Source: an uncultured Rubrobacteraceae bacterium (GTDB taxonomy: Bacteria > Actinomycetota > Rubrobacteria > Rubrobacterales > Rubrobacteraceae). Taken from it: DNA of 49,957 bases. Positions 33,179-42,566 of this stretch are shown here, one piece after another. The stretch's first letter is position 1. Every line of letters starts with the position of its first letter. The stretch lies in NCBI GenBank assembly GCA_902805975.1, contig CADCUT010000033.1:1-49957 (forward strand). Direction: 5' to 3'. Both the position numbers and the translations under genes were made by a program. The notes below the pieces were generated by a model. That model saw nothing but the letters and a program-made list of their open reading frames with translations, searched no databases and had not been told where the DNA came from.

Positions 33179-34732
33179 CTAACCCTTCTTCCCGTTCACC
33201 CCGTACTCGAGGCCGTCAACCAACGCCTGCCAGCTAGCCTCGATGATGTTCTCGCCGACGCCGACGGCGCCCCAGACGCGCTTGCCGTCCGTGGAGTCTA
33301 TAAGGACGCGGGTGGTGGCCGCCGTCGCGCGGTGCTCGTCGAGGATGCGGACCTTGTAGTTGGAGAGGTGGATCTCCGCAAGCTCCGGGTAGTGTGGCCC
33401 GATCGCCTCCCGCAACGCCTTGTCCAGCGCGTTGACGGGGCCGTTGCCCTCGGCGGTGGAGATGACCCTCTGGCCTTTTACGAAGAGCTTTATGGTCGCC
33501 TCCGTGGTCGTGCGGCCGTCGGCGCGTTTCTCGGATATGATCCTGAACGTCTCTAGCTCGAAGAGGGGCGTGTCCTCGCCTGCGGTGCGCCCGATGAGCA
33601 GGGCGAGCGAGGCGTCGGCGGCCTCGTAGTGGTAGCCCTCGTACTCGCGCCGCTTGATGGCGCCGAGTATCTGCGTCGCGTCCCCCGCCTCGATGCCGAG
33701 CTCCGCGGCCTTGGCTTTTATGGAGTTCTTCCCCGAGAGCTCCCCGACCGGCGTCCGGCGGACGTTGCCGACGACCTCGGGTGCGATGTGCTCGTAGGTG
33801 GCCGGGTCCTTGCTTATGCCGTCCACGTGCAGCCCGCCCTTGTGGGCGAAGGCGCTCCTCCCGACGTAGGGCCTGTGCGTGTCGGGCGTGAGGTTCATGA
33901 GCTCTGAGACGTAGTTGGAGACGCCCGTGAGCTTCTTCAACCCCTCGTCTTCGACGACCTTCAGGCCCATCTTCAACTGCAGGTTGGCGATGGTGGTGAC
34001 GAGGTCGCAGTTGCCGGTCCGCTCCCCGACCCCGTTGACCGTCCCCTGAACGTGGGTCGCCCCGGCCTCGACGGCCGCAAGCGCGTTCGCCACCCCGCAC
34101 CCGGCGTCGTTGTGGGTGTGGATGCCGACCTCGACATCCGGGAACTCCCGGACCGTCCTGGCCACGATGGCCTTGAGCTCCGTCGGGAGCGTGCCGCCGT
34201 TGGTGTCGCAGAGGACGAGCGTCGTGGCGCGGGCCTCGGCCGCGGCCCGCAGGACCGCGAGCGCGTAGTCTGGGTCGTCCCTGAAGCCGTCGAAATAGTG
34301 CTCGGCATCGAAGAGCACCTCCTTGCCAGCGTCAACCAGGTACGAGACCGTGTCCTTGACGGACGCTACGTTCTCCTGTGGCGTGGTCCTCAATACCTTC
34401 TCGACGTGCAGCTTCCAGCTCTTGGCGACGATGCAGGCGACGGGCGCGTTGAGGGCGGGGAGGAGCGTCACCGCGGGGTCCTCGTCCGCCCGGCCGTTGG
34501 GGCGCCGCGCGCGCGTGAAGGCGACGAGCTTCGCGTTTTTAAGCTCCGAGGCGTCGAAACCTTCGAAGAACTCCAGGTCCTTGGGGTTGGAGGCCGGGAA
34601 GCCCGCCTCGATGTAGTGGAGGCCCAAAGTGTCCAGCTCTGTGGCTATCCGGATCTTGTCCTCCGTCGTCAAACTCACGCCCTCGCGCTGCGTGCCGTCC
34701 CTCAAGGTTGTGTCGAAAAGCTTTATGCTCAT
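33179..34732 (-). CDS. cimA: Citramalate synthase
   Basis: The product has 517 residues from ATG 34732, which has GGGAGG upstream and overlaps the leuB stop (ATGA). It belongs to the DRE-TIM metallolyase group: [68 protein letters not shown] and VNGVGERTGNCDL. The N-T-H-x-D and T-G-N-C-D pattern is typical of the CimA rather than the LeuA branch. The C-terminal half is the LeuA-type dimerisation/regulatory domain. It condenses pyruvate and acetyl-CoA to (R)-citramalate, an entry to isoleucine independent of threonine. It ends the leucine operon. Confidence 0.93.
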   Translation of the reverse strand: MSIKLFDTTLRDGTQREGVSLTTEDKIRIATELDTLGLHYIEAGFPASNPKDLEFFEGFDASELKNAKLVAFTRARRPNGRADEDPAVTLLPALNAPVACIVAKSWKLHVEKVLRTTPQENVASVKDTVSYLVDAGKEVLFDAEHYFDGFRDDPDYALAVLRAAAEARATTLVLCDTNGGTLPTELKAIVARTVREFPDVEVGIHTHNDAGCGVANALAAVEAGATHVQGTVNGVGERTGNCDLVTTIANLQLKMGLKVVEDEGLKKLTGVSNYVSELMNLTPDTHRPYVGRSAFAHKGGLHVDGISKDPATYEHIAPEVVGNVRRTPVGELSGKNSIKAKAAELGIEAGDATQILGAIKRREYEGYHYEAADASLALLIGRTAGEDTPLFELETFRIISEKRADGRTTTEATIKLFVKGQRVISTAEGNGPVNALDKALREAIGPHYPELAEIHLSNYKVRILDEHRATAATTRVLIDSTDGKRVWGAVGVGENIIEASWQALVDGLEYGVNGKKG

Positions 34733-35796
34733 GCCACGCCCTCCCCGGCCCCGACCCACCGGCCGACGGCCTCTGCCACCTGCTCCGTCGTCTTGTTGCC
34801 GCCGAGGTCGGCGGTCAGATAGTGGGCCTCAAGCGCCACCGAGACGCCCTGCTCGATGGCTTCCGCCACGTCCGGACGTCCTAAAGAGTGGCGGAACATC
34901 ATCGCCGCGGACAGGATCGCGGCGTACGGGTTGGCCTTGCCTTGACCCGCGATGTCCGGGGCGGAGCCGTGCACGGGCTCGAAGATGCCGGGGGAGCCGG
35001 GATCTCCCAGGGAGGCGCTTGGGAGCATCCCCATCGAGCCCGGCAGCATCGCCGCCTCGTCGGAGAGTATGTCCCCGAAAAGGTTCTCGGTGAGCATCAC
35101 GTCGAAGCGCCCGGGCTCCCTCACGAGGTGCATCGCCGCCGCGTCGACGAGGACGTGGTCGAGCTCGACGTCCGGATAACTCCTTGCGACCTCGGTGACG
35201 ACCTTCCGCCACAGGCGGCCCGTCGCCATAACGTTCGCCTTGTCCACGCTCGTTACGCGGCGCTTCCTACGCTTGGCGGCGTCGAAGGCGACGCGGGCCA
35301 CCCGGTCTATCTCCCCCCTGGTGTAGACGGAGAGGTCGCTCGCCCGCTCGTCGCCCTCCTCCTTCTCCCCGAAGTACGCGCCGCCGGTAAGCTCGCGCAC
35401 GATCAGGACGTCCACCCCTTCTACGATCTCCTTCTTCAGCGGCGACGCGTCGAGCAGCGCCGGAATCGCCGCGACGGGCCGCAGGTTGGCGAACGCCCCG
35501 AGGTGCTTGCGGAGCTTCAACAGCCCGGCCTCGGGCCTTACCGGGGCGTCGTCGAAGTCCGGGTGGCCGACCGCCCCGAGCAGGACGGAGTCCGAGGCAC
35601 GCGCCGCCGCAAGCGTCTCGTCCGAGACGGGGGCTCCCTCGTCCCGGATGGCCACGCCGCCTATCTTGCGTTCTTCGTAGCGGATCTCCACGCCGAAGTG
35701 CTCCGCCGCGAGGTCCATCACGGCCCGGGCGGCCCCGATCACCTCCGGGCCTATGCCGTCACCCGGTAGCAGTAATATGTCGAAAGAGTCGCGCAT
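34729..35796 (-). CDS. leuB: 3-isopropylmalate dehydrogenase
   Basis: The product has 355 residues. ATG 35796 is fixed by AGGAGG and by the family start DSFDILLLPGDGIGPEVIGA. Other marks are LLGAVGHPDFDD, RLRKHLGAFANLRPV (seen as LLKLRKHLGAFANLRPVAAI), LTGGAYFG, VTSVDKANVMATGRLWRKVV, then VDAAAMHLVREPGRFDVMLT and NLFGDILSDEAAMLPGSMGM. It oxidises and decarboxylates 3-isopropylmalate with NAD+ in leucine synthesis. The related substrate 3-methylmalate from the citramalate route can be handled by such enzymes, which fits the cimA gene that follows. Its stop overlaps cimA. Confidence 0.95.
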   Translation of the reverse strand: MRDSFDILLLPGDGIGPEVIGAARAVMDLAAEHFGVEIRYEERKIGGVAIRDEGAPVSDETLAAARASDSVLLGAVGHPDFDDAPVRPEAGLLKLRKHLGAFANLRPVAAIPALLDASPLKKEIVEGVDVLIVRELTGGAYFGEKEEGDERASDLSVYTRGEIDRVARVAFDAAKRRKRRVTSVDKANVMATGRLWRKVVTEVARSYPDVELDHVLVDAAAMHLVREPGRFDVMLTENLFGDILSDEAAMLPGSMGMLPSASLGDPGSPGIFEPVHGSAPDIAGQGKANPYAAILSAAMMFRHSLGRPDVAEAIEQGVSVALEAHYLTADLGGNKTTEQVAEAVGRWVGAGEGVA

Positions 35797-35806
35797 GGTA
35801 TTCCTC

Positions 35807-36574
35807 CTAGAACTCCGGCCTCGACCGGAGCCACTCCTGTCCGCCCGGACCCAGCGAGCGGGCCAACAACTCTTCCGCCCGCGCCTCCCCGACGACGTCC
35901 CTCTCGTCCCACAGCGCGCGGAAGAGGCGCCCGAGGGAGTCCTCCCCGAACTCCTCCAGCGCCGCGGCACCGAAGAGGAGCAGGAGGTTCTGAAACTTCA
36001 TCTGCTCCTCCGCGCCCGCCGGACCGGTGAATTCCCGTATCGTAAAGCCGGGGTCGGGGTCCACGCGCCCCAGGTGTTCCTCCAGCGGGAGCCCGACCCT
36101 GCGGGCGACAGCCGCCGAGGCCGCCTGCGGCACGAGCTCGCCGAGCCAGACCGGCGTCCTCACGACGGGCCCGTCCAGCAGGAAGGCGTGCGCCAGCTCG
36201 TGCCAGACGGCGAGCGGCAGGAGCGAACCCGTCCTGGGGTGGAAGACCGGGGACAGCCTCTCCGGAAGCACCAGCGCGGGGGGCTCCACGGAGCGGGTGA
36301 AGTAAGGGAGCCCTGCCGGGTAGGGGTTTTCGCTCTCGCGCGGCGTCTCGTTCCAGTCCTCCTCAGCTACCAGGAGGGCCGAGAGGTCCGGCGCCCCGGT
36401 CCCGAGTATGCCGGACATCGCCCCGGAGCCTCGGACCAGGTGCCCCCGCACCTCCCGCGCCTGCTCCGACAGACGCGGGGCGTGGAAGACGGGAACCGGG
36501 CCGTCCAGGCAGAGGTAGCCGGGGATCGGGGTGTTTCGTACCGGGTTCGCTACGGCGCTACCGGGGCTTCCCAA
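35807..36574 (-). CDS. Uncharacterised HExxH protein inside the leucine operon
   Basis: The product has 255 residues from TTG 36574, overlapping the leuA stop by 25 bases; no other in-frame start is available nearby. Residues 120-150 read LPLAVWHELAHAFLLDG, then PVWLGELVPQAASA: an HExxH zinc motif (His125, Glu126, His129) and a Glu146 at a spacing like the third ligand of gluzincin peptidases. No signal peptide or membrane helix is seen, so it should be cytosolic. I recognise no family beyond the zinc motif. Only ten bases separate it from leuB. Tight packing between leuA and leuB suggests a link to leucine synthesis or its control, but this is inference. Confidence 0.7.
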   Translation of the reverse strand: MGSPGSAVANPVRNTPIPGYLCLDGPVPVFHAPRLSEQAREVRGHLVRGSGAMSGILGTGAPDLSALLVAEEDWNETPRESENPYPAGLPYFTRSVEPPALVLPERLSPVFHPRTGSLLPLAVWHELAHAFLLDGPVVRTPVWLGELVPQAASAAVARRVGLPLEEHLGRVDPDPGFTIREFTGPAGAEEQMKFQNLLLLFGAAALEEFGEDSLGRLFRALWDERDVVGEARAEELLARSLGPGGQEWLRSRPEF

Positions 36575-38091
36575 GGCGACTTCACCCGCCCGGCGGAGTA
36601 CACGTTCGCCGCCCGCACGTAGGCCCGGGCCGCCGCCTCAACGACGTCCTGGCTTAGGCCCCGGCCTCCGTACTCGTTGCCCTCGAACTCGACCGAGACC
36701 CGCACCTCGCCGAGGGCGTCCTTGCCGCCCGTAACGGCGTCTATGCGAAAGTCCGTCAGGCGGCCCTTGATGTTCGTTGCCGCGTCCACGGCCCGGAAGA
36801 CGGCGTCCACGGGGCCCTCGCCCTCGGCCTCCGCTTCAAAAGTGCCCTGCTCGGCGTGGCTTATCGTCACGGCGGCCCGGCTCTGGCGGCCGGTCGCGGC
36901 GACGACCCTGAAGGAGTCGAGGACGTACTTGCCCTCGAAGGAGCCGACCTCGTCGGCGGCGATGGCCTCGAGGTCGGCGGCCGTGACGGTCTTCTTGTGG
37001 TCCGCTATCTCCTTGAAGCGGACGAAGGCGCGCTTGAGGACCTCGCCCTCGACAACGTAGCCGAGCTCCTCGAGGGCGTCCTTGAGGGCGTGGCGGCCGG
37101 AGTGCTTGCCGAGAAAGATGTTCGTGCCTTCAAGGCCGATGTCCTCTTTCGTCATGATCTCGAAGGTTCGCCGGTCCTTGAGGACGCCGTCCTGGTGGAT
37201 GCCAGACTCGTGCAGAAAGGCGTTCCTGCCAACGACGGCCTTGTTCGGCGGCACCTCGTAGCCGGTCATGTTCGAGACCAGGCGCGAGGTGTTGGCGAGC
37301 TGCTTGGTCTCGACGCCGACCTCGACGCCGTAGAAGTCGCCGCGGGTGGCGAGCGCCATCACGACCTCCTCGAGGCTCGCGTTGCCGGCCCGCTCGCCGA
37401 TGCCGTTGACGGCCACCTCGATCTGCCCAGCCCCGACCTCGACGCCCGCCAGCGAGTTCGCCACCGCCATCCCGAGGTCGTCGTGGCAGTGAACAGAGAG
37501 GACCCGCTCCCCGAGCTTCGGGACCCTCTCCTGGAGCTCCTTCAGGAAGCGGGCGAACTCGACCGGCGTCGTGTAGCCGACGGTGTCCGCGATGTTGACG
37601 ACGTCCGCCCCCGCCTCGACAGCCGCCGCGACGACCTCCGAGAGAAAGCCTATGTCCGTCCTCGTCGCGTCCATCGGGGAGAACTCGACGTTAGAGCAAA
37701 GGCCCTTGGCGAATTGGACCGCCTCGCCCGCCCTTTTCAGTATTTCCTCGCGGTTGGAGCGCATCTGGTGCTCGATGTGCAGGTCCGAGGTCCCGACGAA
37801 GGTGTGGATGCGGGGCCTGTCGGACCACTGGACCGCCTCCCAGGCCCTGCGGATGTCCTCCTCGTGGATGCGGGCGAGGCCGGCGATGCGGGGTCCCTTC
37901 ACCTCGGCGGCGATGCGAGACACCGACTCGAAGTCGCCCTCGCTGGTAATCGGGAAGCCTGCCTCTATAACATCGACCTTCAGGCGGGCGAGCTGGCGGG
38001 CTATCTCCACCTTCTCCTCGACGGAGAGGGAGATGCCCGGGGATTGCTCGCCGTCGCGAAGGGTCGTGTCGAAGATCTCTACTCGACGCAT
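36550..38091 (-). CDS. leuA: 2-isopropylmalate synthase
   Basis: The product has 513 residues, the bacterial LeuA1 length. ATG 38091 follows AGGAGG. Features: [20 protein letters not shown] (6-25), [15 protein letters not shown], the metal-binding [16 protein letters not shown] (201-216), [15 protein letters not shown] (229-243), and the lid-related [18 protein letters not shown]. Residues about 370-500 are the C-terminal regulatory domain that binds leucine in this family ([40 protein letters not shown]). It joins 2-oxoisovalerate and acetyl-CoA, the first leucine step. An attenuator-like leader precedes it, so it may be expressed apart from ilvBNCE. Confidence 0.95.
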
Positions 38092-38272: not shown

Positions 38273-39229
38273 TCACTGCCGCGCCCCCTCCGCAACTTCG
38301 ACGGCGACGGTCCAGCCCGCGTACTCGTCCCACCCGCCGCGGGCCGCCTTGAAGTACAGCTCCTGCAAACGCTCCGCGACGGGGCCTATGCTTCCCGTGC
38401 CTATCTCGCGGCCGTCCACCGCGACGACGGGTGCTATCTGGAAGCCCGTACCCGAGAGAAAGACCTCGTCTGCGGCGTAGAGCTCGGTGCGGTCAACGTC
38501 ACGCTCGATGACGGGTATCTCCATCTCCTTCTCCGCGAGCTCCATCACCGCGTCGCGGGTGATGCCCTCCAGGATGTCCGCCGTGACGGGGGGCGTGATG
38601 AGCTGCCCCTTGCGGACCAGGAAGATGTTGGCGGCGCTCGCCTCGGAGACGTGGCCGTCCTGGGTTAGGAAGATCGCGTCGTCGTAGCCGGCCCGGTGCG
38701 CCTCGTCCACCGCGAGTGCCGTGTTGATGTAGGAGCCCGTCAGCTTGCCGCGGGCCGGGATGGACGTGTCAGGCGTCCGCCGCCACGAGGAGACGCAGCA
38801 CTTGAGGCCCGTAAGCTCCACGTAGTTGCCCATCGGGACGGTGAAGATGGAGAGTTGGGACTCGCCCAGCAGGTTCACCCCGACCGAGGTCGCGCCCTTG
38901 TACGCGAGCGGCCGGATGTAGGTGTCCTCGCGCGGGCCGTTGCGCTTGAGGATCTCCAAAGTAATGTCGCACAGCTCGTCGATGGTGTGCGGCAGGTCGA
39001 TGCGGAGCATCCGGCAGGATTTCTCGAACCGCTCGTAGTGCTCGCGCAATTTCAGGACCTGAAGGGTGCCGCGCTCATCGCTCCAGTACGCCCGGATGCC
39101 CTCGAAGACGCCCGTCCCGTAGTTCAGGGCGTGGGTGGCGGGGGAGAGGCGCACCTCGCCCAGCTTCTGTAGCTCCCCGCCGTGGAAGCACCACTCCGCG
39201 TCGTTCGCGGCGAAAGCCTTGCTGCCCAT
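38273..39229 (-). CDS. ilvE: Branched-chain amino acid aminotransferase
   Basis: The product has 318 residues from ATG 39229, sharing a base with the ilvC stop. It is a fold-type IV PLP aminotransferase: ALNYGTGVFEGIRAYW, then YIRPLAYKGATSVGVNL, the PLP Lys162 in PARGKLTGSYINTALAVDEA, GHVSEASAANIFLVRKG and FLSGTGFQIAPVVAVDGREI. It makes leucine, isoleucine and valine from their 2-oxo acids. The order ilvB-small subunit-ilvC-ilvE places the final shared step directly behind ilvC. The leuA leader follows about 20 bases after its stop. Confidence 0.94.
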   Translation of the reverse strand: MGSKAFAANDAEWCFHGGELQKLGEVRLSPATHALNYGTGVFEGIRAYWSDERGTLQVLKLREHYERFEKSCRMLRIDLPHTIDELCDITLEILKRNGPREDTYIRPLAYKGATSVGVNLLGESQLSIFTVPMGNYVELTGLKCCVSSWRRTPDTSIPARGKLTGSYINTALAVDEAHRAGYDDAIFLTQDGHVSEASAANIFLVRKGQLITPPVTADILEGITRDAVMELAEKEMEIPVIERDVDRTELYAADEVFLSGTGFQIAPVVAVDGREIGTGSIGPVAERLQELYFKAARGGWDEYAGWTVAVEVAEGARQ

Positions 39230-40251
39230 CAGTTCGTACCCCCCGCCCGGCTCGCGGCCGGCTCTTCCGCGCCCTCGGCCGCCAGCGCCCTGAGCTCCTG
39301 GCCGACCTTCTCGACCTGCATTTCGGCCTGGCGGCGGCGCATGGCGAGGAAGCTGGAGCCGCCGGCCTGGTTCTCCAGCACCCACTCCTTGGCCCACTTG
39401 CCCGTCTGGATGTCCGTGAGGATGCCGCGCATTCTCTCCTTCACGGCGTCGTCCACGATCTTCGGCCCAGCCGTGTAGTCGCCGTACTCGGCGGTGTTTG
39501 AGATCGAGTACCGCATCCCGGCCAACCCGCCCTCGTAGATGAGGTCGACGATCAGCTTCAGCTCGTTTACGCACTCGTAGTACGCGAGCTCCGGCTGGTA
39601 CCCGGCCTCGACGAGCGTCTCGAACCCGGCCGTGAGAAGGGCCGAGAGGCCCCCGCACAGCACGGCCTGCTCCCCGAAGAGGTCCGTCTCGGTCTCCTCG
39701 GCGAACGTCGTCTCGATGATGCCGGCCCGCCCGCTCCCGATGCCGCGGGCGTAGGAGAGGACGACGTCCCGCGCCGCGCCGCTCGCGTCGTTCTGGACGG
39801 CGAAGAGCGAGGGCATCCCCTTGCCCTCGACGTACAGGCGCCGCAGGACGTGGCCCGGTCCTTTAGGAGCGATAAGGCCGAGGTCTACCTCGGGGGGGAC
39901 GACGATCTGGTTGAAGTGGATGTTGAAGCCGTGGGCGAAGAGCATCAGGTCGCCCTCTGAGAGGTTGGGCCTGACCTCGGCTTCGAAGACCGCCGGCTGG
40001 CGCTCGTCGGGGAGGAGCATCATCACCACGTCGGCGTGCCGCACAGCGTCGGCGATGGTCATGACCGCGAGGCCGTCGCCCTCCGCCTTCGGCCAGCTCT
40101 TCGAGCCGTCGTAGAGGCCGACGGTGACGTCGCAGCCGGAGTCTCTCAGGTTGAGGGCGTGGGCGTGGCCCTGGCTGCCGTAGCCCAAGATCGCGACCTT
40201 CCTGGTCGTGATCTCGTTTCCTATGTCGCCTTCGCGGTACACGCGGGCCAT
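39229..40251 (-). CDS. ilvC: Ketol-acid reductoisomerase (class I)
   Basis: The product has 340 residues, class I length. ATG 40251 follows TAGGAG. The Rossmann part shows [32 protein letters not shown] and [10 protein letters not shown]. The metal-binding KARI domain includes [40 protein letters not shown] and [17 protein letters not shown]. It isomerises and reduces acetolactate and acetohydroxybutyrate with NADPH and Mg2+. The gene begins one base after the stop of the ilvN-like gene. Confidence 0.96.
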
Positions 40252-40252
40252 A

Positions 40253-40873
40253 TCAGTCTCCTATCTCTTCGACAACGGACCGGCCGGAAGATCCATCCCC
40301 CGAGGTCCACCGCCACTCTTCGTGCAAGCGCAGGCGTCCATCCGGCAACACCTCGGGCGTCGTGCGGCACTCGCCGGTCATGAGGTCGCCCTCCGCGTTG
40401 ACGTGCCCGTACCTGGCGTCGAGGTTGCCTTCGCCGTCTGAGGTGGCGATCAGGACCCCGTACCGGACGCCGCCGCCCTCGTAGGTCGCGCTGACGACGT
40501 TGCCGTCCTGCCTGTATGCGAACACGGTCCCCGGCCCGACCTCGCCGGTCTCCGAGTTCTCGACCGGACGGAACCGTCGCCCGTCGTAGTCTGCGGAAGA
40601 CTCGCCCGGGCCTCCAGGCGTGGTCACAGAGAATTGGAGCTCCTCCACGTCCTCCATGTTCTCGAGCAGCACCGCGTAGCGCCGGGCGGACTCCTCGGGA
40701 CAGTCGAAGCCGAGCTCGATGTTCGTGCCCCCGGCGTTCGCGTCCACCTTTATGTCGGCGACGGGCATGCGCTTGTTCTGAAGGGTCATCATGAAGCGGT
40801 TGAGGGCGAGGATGCCGGCGGCCAGGCGGACGCTGACGGTGCTGGACGCCGTGCCCGTAGCCTCAGGCGCCAT
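40253..40873 (-). CDS. AHAS small-subunit-like protein: ACT domain fused to an 'N-acetylglutamate synthase-like' beta domain
   Basis: The product has 206 residues and occupies the ilvN position, overlapping ilvB by 11 bases (ATG 40873). Residues 11-82 resemble the ACT domain of IlvM/Ilv[61 protein letters not shown]. Instead of the usual C-terminal small-subunit domain, residues 96-204 ([80 protein letters not shown]) match small stand-alone bacterial proteins of about 110 residues, often labelled 'N-acetylglutamate synthase' with no proof of that activity. It probably binds and regulates IlvB. The reading frame is intact, so this is a real fusion as far as the sequence shows. Confidence 0.78.
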
Positions 40874-42566
40874 CTTCCTCGATCATCTCGTTGACGCTCA
40901 TGCCGGACGGGATCATGGGGTAGACGTTCTTCTCCGGGTCGATGTGGAAGTCCAGGATCACACACCCGTCCCTCTCCTCGGCCCACCGGACCGCCCCCTC
41001 GACGTCGTCTCCCTCGCGCACCGTGCGCCCGGCGAGCCCGTAGGCGGCCGTGAGCTGCTCGTAGTCCGGGCCCGTGATAGGCGTCTCGGAGTAGCGGCGG
41101 TTGTGAAAGAACTGCTGCCACTGGCGGACCATGCCGAGGTAGCCGTTGTTGAGTACCGCGACCTTTATGTTCAGGCCGAAGTCCCGGATCGTGGCGAGCT
41201 CCTGGATGTTCATCTGGAAGCCGCCGTCTCCGGCGACCACCCAGACCGGATCGTCCGGGTAGGCGAACGCGACGCCCATCGCCGCCGGGAGCGAGAAGCC
41301 CATGGTGCCTAAGCCCCCGCTCGTGATGTGGCTGTTGTGCTTGGTGAACTCGAAGAACTGGGCGGCCCACATCTGGTGCTGGCCGACGTCGGTGACCAGA
41401 CGCATGTCGGGGCCTGCGACCTTCTTTATGGCCTCCATCACCTGGATCGGGCCGTACTCGTCGCGCGCCTTCTCCTCGCGCCGCCTCTCGGGCTCCCGGC
41501 TCCGGGCGAGATCCTCGCGCCAGGAGGCGCAGCCCTCGCCCTCCGGGATATCCTCGAGGTGGCCGAGCACCGAGCGCATCGCCGCCCTCGCGTCCTCGGC
41601 GATGCCGATGGTCGGCTTGACGACCTTGCCGAGCTCGGAGGGGTCGACGTCGACGTGGATGATCTTCGCGTTCGGGGCGAACTTGGCGACGGCGCCCGTG
41701 ATCCTATCGTCGAAGCGCATCCCGACGGCGAAGAGGAGGTCGGACCGGTCTATGGCCCTGTTCACGCTCGCCTGCCCGTGCATCCCCGGCCACCCGAGGT
41801 AGAGCGGGTGGTCGTCTGGGAAAGCGCTTATGCCGAGCAGGGTGGTGACGACCGGGATGCCGGTCCGCTCGGCCAGCAGCCTCAGCTCCTTCTCAGCCCC
41901 CGCGAGCGTGACGCCGTGGCCGGCCAGAATCAGGGGCCGCTTGGCGTTCCTGAGGAGCATCGCGGCCCGCTCCAGCGCCGGCGACTCGACGGGGACTTGC
42001 GCCTCGCGCAACCGGCGGTACCCGTTGTCGTTGCAGGCGGCGAACTGGACGTCCTTCGGCACGTCCACGAGGACGGGGCCGGGCCTCCCGCTGCGCGCGA
42101 TCTCGAACGCCCGGCGCATCGTCGGGTACAGCTCGTCCGGGTCCTCTACGAGAAAGGAGTGCTTCGTGAAGGGCAGCGTCATGCCCATCACGTTCGTCTC
42201 CTGAAAGGAGTCCTTGCCAAGGGCAGGACGGCCGACCTGCCCCGTTATGGCCACGAGCGGGACGGAGTCCATCTGCGCCGTCGCGAGCCCGGTGACGAGG
42301 TTCGTAGCCCCGGGGCCGCTCGTCGCGACCACCACGCCGACGCGGTTCGTCGCGCGGGCGTAGCCGTCGGCGGCGTGGGCGGCGGCCTGCTCGTGGCGGG
42401 TCAGGACGTGCTTTAGCGGGTAGTCAGGGAGGGCGTCGTAGAAAGGCATGATCGCGCCGCCCGGGTACCCGAAGAGGTACTCGACCCCCTCGTCCAGCAG
42501 GGCCTCGCACATGGCTTCACTGCCCGTGCGCGGCTTGTATTCGACGTTGAAAGCGGTGTTCTCCAT
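40863..42566 (-). CDS. ilvB: Acetolactate synthase large subunit
   Basis: The product has 567 residues. The TPP-activating Glu59 is in LTRHEQAAAHAADGYARA, the FAD/TPP domains follow in standard order (GVVVATSGPGATNLVTGLAT, GWPGMHGQASVNRAIDRSDL), and the TPP motif GDGGFQMNIQELATIRDFGL to NN spans 446-474. LGTMGFSLPAAMGVAFAYPD is also typical. It makes 2-acetolactate or 2-aceto-2-hydroxybutyrate, the first shared branched-chain step. ATG 42566 follows AGGATGGG. A leader with attenuator-like features precedes it. It is translationally coupled to the unusual small subunit. Confidence 0.96.
   Translation of the reverse strand: MENTAFNVEYKPRTGSEAMCEALLDEGVEYLFGYPGGAIMPFYDALPDYPLKHVLTRHEQAAAHAADGYARATNRVGVVVATSGPGATNLVTGLATAQMDSVPLVAITGQVGRPALGKDSFQETNVMGMTLPFTKHSFLVEDPDELYPTMRRAFEIARSGRPGPVLVDVPKDVQFAACNDNGYRRLREAQVPVESPALERAAMLLRNAKRPLILAGHGVTLAGAEKELRLLAERTGIPVVTTLLGISAFPDDHPLYLGWPGMHGQASVNRAIDRSDLLFAVGMRFDDRITGAVAKFAPNAKIIHVDVDPSELGKVVKPTIGIAEDARAAMRSVLGHLEDIPEGEGCASWREDLARSREPERRREEKARDEYGPIQVMEAIKKVAGPDMRLVTDVGQHQMWAAQFFEFTKHNSHITSGGLGTMGFSLPAAMGVAFAYPDDPVWVVAGDGGFQMNIQELATIRDFGLNIKVAVLNNGYLGMVRQWQQFFHNRRYSETPITGPDYEQLTAAYGLAGRTVREGDDVEGAVRWAEERDGCVILDFHIDPEKNVYPMIPSGMSVNEMIEEDGA

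Follow-up and report, generated by a model that had tools for sequence, protein, structure and literature searches.

In the window, by which we mean the whole stretch of 49,957 nucleotides of DNA from an uncultured Rubrobacteraceae bacterium that was analysed (contig CADCUT010000033.1), a single open frame of 206 aa with an ATG start lies between ilvB and ilvC (Table 1). AHAS, a herbicide target, stands at the entry to the synthesis of valine, leucine and isoleucine, and the gene for its large subunit adjoins the 206-aa frame and is read in the same direction. The original prediction had placed the gene in the ilvN slot, and this position holds, both neighbours being identified by models over their cut-offs. 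The start of the small-subunit gene overlaps the 3' end of ilvB by 11 nt, the ATG of ilvC is found 1 nt past the small-subunit stop, and a GGAG inside the last small-subunit codons may serve as the ribosome site of ilvC. Downstream, the order of genes is ilvC, ilvE, leuA, an unnamed 255-aa ORF, leuB and cimA, and thrB and thrC are located upstream. With the exception of the 255-aa ORF, the neighbouring genes were named via NCBIfam models over their cut-offs; the start of ilvE was set at the ATG at 39229, a longer frame from 39658 being also listed. The 255-aa ORF (35807-36574, minus strand), situated between leuA and leuB, matched neither Pfam nor NCBIfam and carries an HELAH motif, which we take to resemble that of zinc metallopeptidases.

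Table 1. Positions of the small-subunit gene, its domains and the neighbouring genes in the window.
Feature	Position	Strand	Basis
AHAS regulatory (small) subunit, ACT-like domain plus predicted avidin-like beta-barrel	40253..40873	(-)	ORF, 206 aa; fusion in 4 genomes; AlphaFold
N-terminal ACT-like domain, residues 1-84 (fold core 11-83)	40622..40873	(-)	AlphaFold; Foldseek to 5ypp and 6lpi chain E; weak profile match; aligned in 33 family genomes
Linker, residues 85-94, drifting fast	40592..40621	(-)	pLDDT < 50 at 85-92; omega 0.49-1.28
Predicted beta-barrel domain with eight strands, residues 95-206, belonging to an unnamed family of small stand-alone proteins	40256..40591	(-)	alignment; AlphaFold; Foldseek; omega
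ilvB, AHAS catalytic subunit	40863..42566	(-)	TIGR00118, 675.8 bits, cut-off 538.35
ilvC, ketol-acid reductoisomerase	39229..40251	(-)	TIGR00465 over cut-off
ilvE, branched-chain aminotransferase	38273..39229	(-)	TIGR01122 and NF005146 over cut-off on longer frame
leuA, 2-isopropylmalate synthase	36550..38091	(-)	TIGR00973 over cut-off
leuB, 3-isopropylmalate dehydrogenase	34729..35970	(-)	TIGR00169 over cut-off; longest frame, match from residue 65
cimA, citramalate synthase	33179..34759	(-)	TIGR00977 over cut-off

Neither the whole 206-aa frame nor either of its halves gave a Pfam match better than E 0.12 or any NCBIfam match, and searches of PHROGs and PDB sequences, with the single protein as well as with profiles, returned nothing useful for either domain. 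The protein had been described as an ACT domain fused to an 'N-acetylglutamate synthase-like' domain. Since Pfam and NCBIfam gave no match, these two labels came from no profile library used here; the searches with the two halves agree with the proposed absence of ALS_ss_C, but they leave neither domain label backed by a library.

The same fusion was found in three further genomes of the family (G003, G004 and G006), with 79-90% identity over 206 aa, so that, together with the window's own genome (G000), fused ilv loci were counted in four genomes. This recurrence excludes chance or misassembly. The window's own genome is a draft, 82% complete and divided into 238 contigs, which could have raised the suspicion of an assembly or gene-calling artefact; however, one of the three further genomes with the fusion, G006, is 97% complete and consists of 2 contigs, the frame is open from end to end, and omega is below 1 in both domains. 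An artefact has hardly any probability left, and we regard this explanation as already refuted.

The ACT-like part and its tails in Rubrobacteraceae

In Foldseek searches, the predicted ACT part retrieved E. coli IlvN (5ypp, TMt 0.65) and the small subunit in chain E of an AHAS holoenzyme (6lpi, TMt 0.69), both standing among many ACT-type or other ferredoxin-like matches. The whole-protein AlphaFold model, the ACT part of which was built on 4 sequences, had a pTM of 0.56, and when this model was searched, no avidin, ACT-type or other ferredoxin-like structure was matched at E <= 0.001. The ACT part and the ACT domain of canonical IlvN showed a weak profile match (P 0.0048), with 4/200 column shuffles scoring as high. 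Pfam ACT was matched by none of the 33 family members, and a profile search against PDB sequences returned no AHAS chain. The prediction that an ACT-like domain comes first is thus upheld by predicted topology and by the Foldseek matches to IlvN, and weakly by the sequence profile.

Within this part, the core residues R15, K23, R24, P26, R54, E63, D64 and V65 (A3 numbering) are invariant in 33/33 sequences, whatever tail follows. Among 18 canonical IlvN sequences, the loop Asn is present in 16, and both the loop Gly and a later Asn are present in all; we take this N-x-x-G loop and the later Asn to be residues of the valine site. The later Asn is replaced by Pro in each of the 33 family ACT parts, and the loop Asn is not conserved in the ungapped or in the gapped alignment. 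The canonical loop Gly falls on Leu or Tyr if the alignment is ungapped, and on a Gly kept in 32/33 sequences if it is gapped. According to one publication (PMC5727371), change of the conserved Gly renders E. coli AHAS III valine-insensitive, AHAS II is insensitive to valine and AHAS I is inhibited, and the small subunits of AHAS I and II contain one ACT-like subdomain and those of AHAS III two.

The ACT-like part was present in 33 of the 36 family genomes and was flanked by ilvB and ilvC in all 33. The other three (G013, G022 and G034) gave no ACT match and no close ilvB (best match 28-29% or none, at E <= 1e-40) and were excluded from the tail counts. When 296 genomes of the phylum were searched with the ACT profile, 25 family genomes were recovered, plus one weak match with an internal stop. 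After the ACT part, 22 of the 33 genomes have an ALS_ss_C-like module, six have no tail (L006, L007, L008, L012, L019 and L025), four have the barrel (G000, G003, G004 and G006) and one, G001, has a VOC/glyoxalase domain (PF00903, E 3.1e-11).

The common module measures 49-73 aa and ends in a motif like VRLGPVARPG in the 22 genomes. Searched one by one, 1/21 module sequences matched PF10369, at E 0.18. As a profile, the module matched the C domain of 18 canonical IlvN sequences (obtained from 20 loci of the phylum) with P 2.8e-4, none of 200 column shuffles scoring as high, and ACT part plus module were collinear with canonical IlvN over 126 columns, again with 0/200 shuffles as high. The module of L029 (49 aa) stood outside alignment A4 (21 rows) and was included among the 22 for the profile comparison. 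Judged from its sequence, the common module of the 22 relatives is a diverged ALS_ss_C-like domain.

The VOC fusion of G001 (L005/L035 676-1359, G001:C298) consists of an ACT part and the VOC/glyoxalase domain between ilvB and ilvC, and was seen on one low-coverage MAG contig (coverage 1.67). Stand-alone relatives of this VOC domain occur in the family, with at best 70% identity in G010 (one internal stop), 62% in G019 and 45% in the window's own genome.

We also followed the possibility of a canonical ilvN located elsewhere. ALS_ss_C (PF10369) was found over cut-off in 0/36 family genomes, that is, the window's own and 35 others with G006 among them, and, as part of the same search, in 20 of 24 genomes from elsewhere in the phylum; 13 of the 14 control genomes matched. 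G002 and G033 gave weak, sub-threshold matches that do not lie on the ilv contigs.

The barrel domain and its stand-alone relatives

The barrel domain has a length of 112 aa. Over six genome pairs, omega was 0.12-0.27 for the barrel and 0.26-0.64 for the ACT part (for the ten linker codons see Table 1), and in the same pairs it amounted to 0.06-0.07 for ilvB and 0.05-0.13 for ilvC. Barrel omega was below ACT omega in 5/6 pairs, the two values being about equal in the closest pair, G000-G004 (0.265 versus 0.257). By these ratios, the barrel is under purifying selection. A separate start of the barrel was considered and dropped, for want of a conserved internal start: three of the four genomes lack any start codon in the interval from codon 84 to codon 116 and G004 has an ATG at 94, and codon 94, the Met position of the stand-alone proteins, reads GCA in G000, ATG in G004, GTA in G003 and ATA in G006.

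Modelled alone with AlphaFold from 12 sequences, the barrel reached a pLDDT of 93.7 and a pTM of 0.85 and was predicted as all-beta with eight strands. Avidin-type structures made up 49 of the 50 Foldseek matches listed (TMq 0.58-0.69, best E 3.1e-3), the remaining one being a retinol-binding protein; whether the whole protein or the barrel was searched, avidin E-values were 2e-3 or worse. The domain is accordingly described here as a predicted avidin-like barrel, in the sense of a resemblance of fold. The name 'N-acetylglutamate synthase-like' is not supported: it occurs in no library or record examined, and what is predicted for this domain is the barrel fold just described. The polar residues Y26, Q28, Y61, N65, R88, E91, R94 and D99 are invariant in 13/13 aligned sequences from several phyla, in an alignment of the closer family members, and such invariance hints at a site.

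The second domain does belong to a family of stand-alone small proteins, as had been predicted. Nine stand-alone homologues share 46-65% identity with it, and the homology extends over the whole domain, with 33 columns invariant in 13 sequences. These relatives also bear on the question of whether the C-terminal half of the window protein could be a strongly diverged ALS_ss_C, which it would resemble in position, the more so as the module of the 22 sister genomes is itself far diverged and reaches PF10369 in 1/21 cases even at E 0.18. However, comparison of the barrel and ALS_ss_C profiles gave a score of 7.7, equalled or exceeded in 191/200 shuffles, the barrel model is all-beta with eight strands and not ferredoxin-like, and it shares 46-65% identity with the stand-alone proteins. 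On these three grounds an ALS_ss_C identity of the barrel was dropped, its probability being negligible. The usual C-terminal small-subunit domain, ALS_ss_C (PF10369) of type III, is thus missing from the window protein, in agreement with the original prediction.

A barrel profile matched 17/396 genomes of the phylum, namely four with the fused form and two with partial or decayed copies, all of the family, and 11 with stand-alone copies, which belong to two other families. Close homologues were found in Bacteroidota, in a Micromonosporaceae MAG and in a 'Deltaproteobacteria' (Myxococcota-type) MAG. Plasmids account for 22 further records, most of them from haloarchaea or Acinetobacter, and a phage for one; 20 of the 22 plasmid entries read 'hypothetical protein', one comes from an unannotated record and one has no listed gene. 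The fusion had been expected to give a functional hint for this stand-alone family, and this hint turned out to be weak, with ilvB/ilvC homologues near the stand-alone barrels in 0/24 loci (the flank was about 1.5 kb in 11 and cut by contig or record ends in some others) and with integrase, transposase or toxin-antitoxin genes near the barrel gene in the four plasmid stretches inspected.

Several single loci deserve mention. On a 6,280-bp Acinetobacter plasmid, a barrel gene annotated as 'hypothetical protein' (L126 1901-2242) lies near a RelE/ParE-type toxin-antitoxin pair. One Algoriphagus copy sits between genes for an amino-acid permease and a GNAT acetyltransferase, and one might guess that such a neighbourhood gave rise to the 'N-acetylglutamate synthase-like' label. 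Decayed stand-alone barrels in G010, G035 and G032 (L095, L096 and L097) are located between glycerate-kinase-type (DUF4147 plus MOFRL) and trehalose-phosphatase genes, these neighbours having been identified with Pfam in L095 and by eye in L096 and L097. In one Flavobacteriales MAG, a distance of about 2.5 kb separates two barrel-type matches (L040 4799-5128 and 7670-7921), the second of which covers the later part of the domain only.

In the IlvB tree, the VOC genome groups with the four barrel genomes in a single clade (100/99), placed amid the ALS_ss_C-like types, so that the comparison shows a replacement of the ALS_ss_C-like module within this one clade. The VOC genome falls inside the barrel group; the barrel label then needs two changes, and a single change suffices in 1% of bootstrap trees. 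The row of the VOC genome fills 45% of the columns and no starred branch forces its placement among the barrels. With so weak a placement, either a later exchange of the barrel for the VOC domain or two separate gains may account for the tails. The ACT-only forms account for two changes on the same tree. The barrel tree includes 20 stand-alone homologues and unites the four fused domains in a single clade (96/94), which would fit a single acquisition of the fused barrel.

A possible role of the barrel and comparison with known systems

We propose that the ACT-like domain docks on IlvB and that the barrel replaces the lost module, senses a small molecule and tunes AHAS, a reading to which we assign a probability of roughly 0.5. 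By analogy with E. coli AHAS I and II, whose small subunits consist of an ACT domain only and on which this role is modelled, the ACT-like domain would dimerise, dock on IlvB and keep it active. The avidin-like barrel would serve as regulator in place of the lost module, and binding of a small molecule to it would alter the activity of AHAS or the stability of the complex. We infer the docking from position and predicted fold; for ligand sensing by the barrel the chances are about one in two.

The ACT part stands alone in six family members, the stand-alone barrels are accessory genes at unrelated places, and G001 has a VOC domain at the position of the barrel, perhaps a sign that passengers are tolerated there. 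All this would suit a protein whose ACT part alone serves AHAS, the barrel having an unrelated function of its own and being fused for co-expression only. However, this clade has not retained the older tail beside the barrel, and the fused form has been kept in four genomes, none of which has a second barrel match at E <= 1e-5; we consider such a passenger rather unlikely. Avidin-type barrels commonly tetramerise, and a ligand-free barrel that only stabilises or oligomerises the holoenzyme would be consistent with the predicted fold and its conservation; since the polar residues invariant in all 13 sequences hint at a site, this purely structural part is also judged unlikely.

In this family, the C-terminal place could be seen as an exchangeable sensor socket, filled by an ALS_ss_C-like module, by nothing, by a barrel or by a VOC domain, each of which would lend the same ACT part, presumed to bind IlvB, a response to another metabolite. 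We put this forward tentatively, at somewhat below even odds. If true, the barrel would represent a new class of small-molecule sensor in branched-chain amino-acid synthesis. In one small Rubrobacter-like group of actinobacteria, the AHAS regulatory subunit seems to have retained its front domain while its rear domain was exchanged, which suggests that domain swapping can alter what AHAS responds to. No AHAS small-subunit fusion of this kind was reported in the title or abstract of the literature searched, and what is new is the tail, which we did not find described for the family of AHAS regulatory subunits. Related catalytic and ACT parts combined with four kinds of tail constitute a natural series, which would allow the jobs of ACT part and tail to be measured separately, and for the stand-alone barrels, to which the sources examined assign no function, the fusion would provide a setting for testing one. 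The observation behind the original prediction was confirmed, and its interpretation is, overall, partly supported.

N-acetylglutamate synthase has a GNAT acetyltransferase domain, with or without an amino-acid kinase domain; the window protein, in contrast, has no Pfam or NCBIfam match and its C-terminal model is an all-beta barrel. With avidin and streptavidin it shares a predicted antiparallel barrel of eight strands and about 110 aa, but identity is 7-16% among the matches listed, with a best E of 3.1e-3, and the likeness is one of predicted fold. The stand-alone family is homologous to the barrel, but its members are unfused and lie away from ilvB/ilvC in 24/24 stretches. IlvN of AHAS I and IlvM of AHAS II likewise have one ACT-type domain encoded next to the AHAS large-subunit gene, and we presume that the ACT part of the window protein resembles IlvM; it differs from this short form, which has no second domain, by the additional C-terminal barrel and by having no Pfam ACT match. 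With the type III subunit IlvH/IlvN (ACT plus ALS_ss_C, PF10369), the window protein has in common a two-domain plan with the ACT part first, whereas its second domain is an unrelated, predicted beta barrel and two canonical Asn positions of the ACT part are not conserved.
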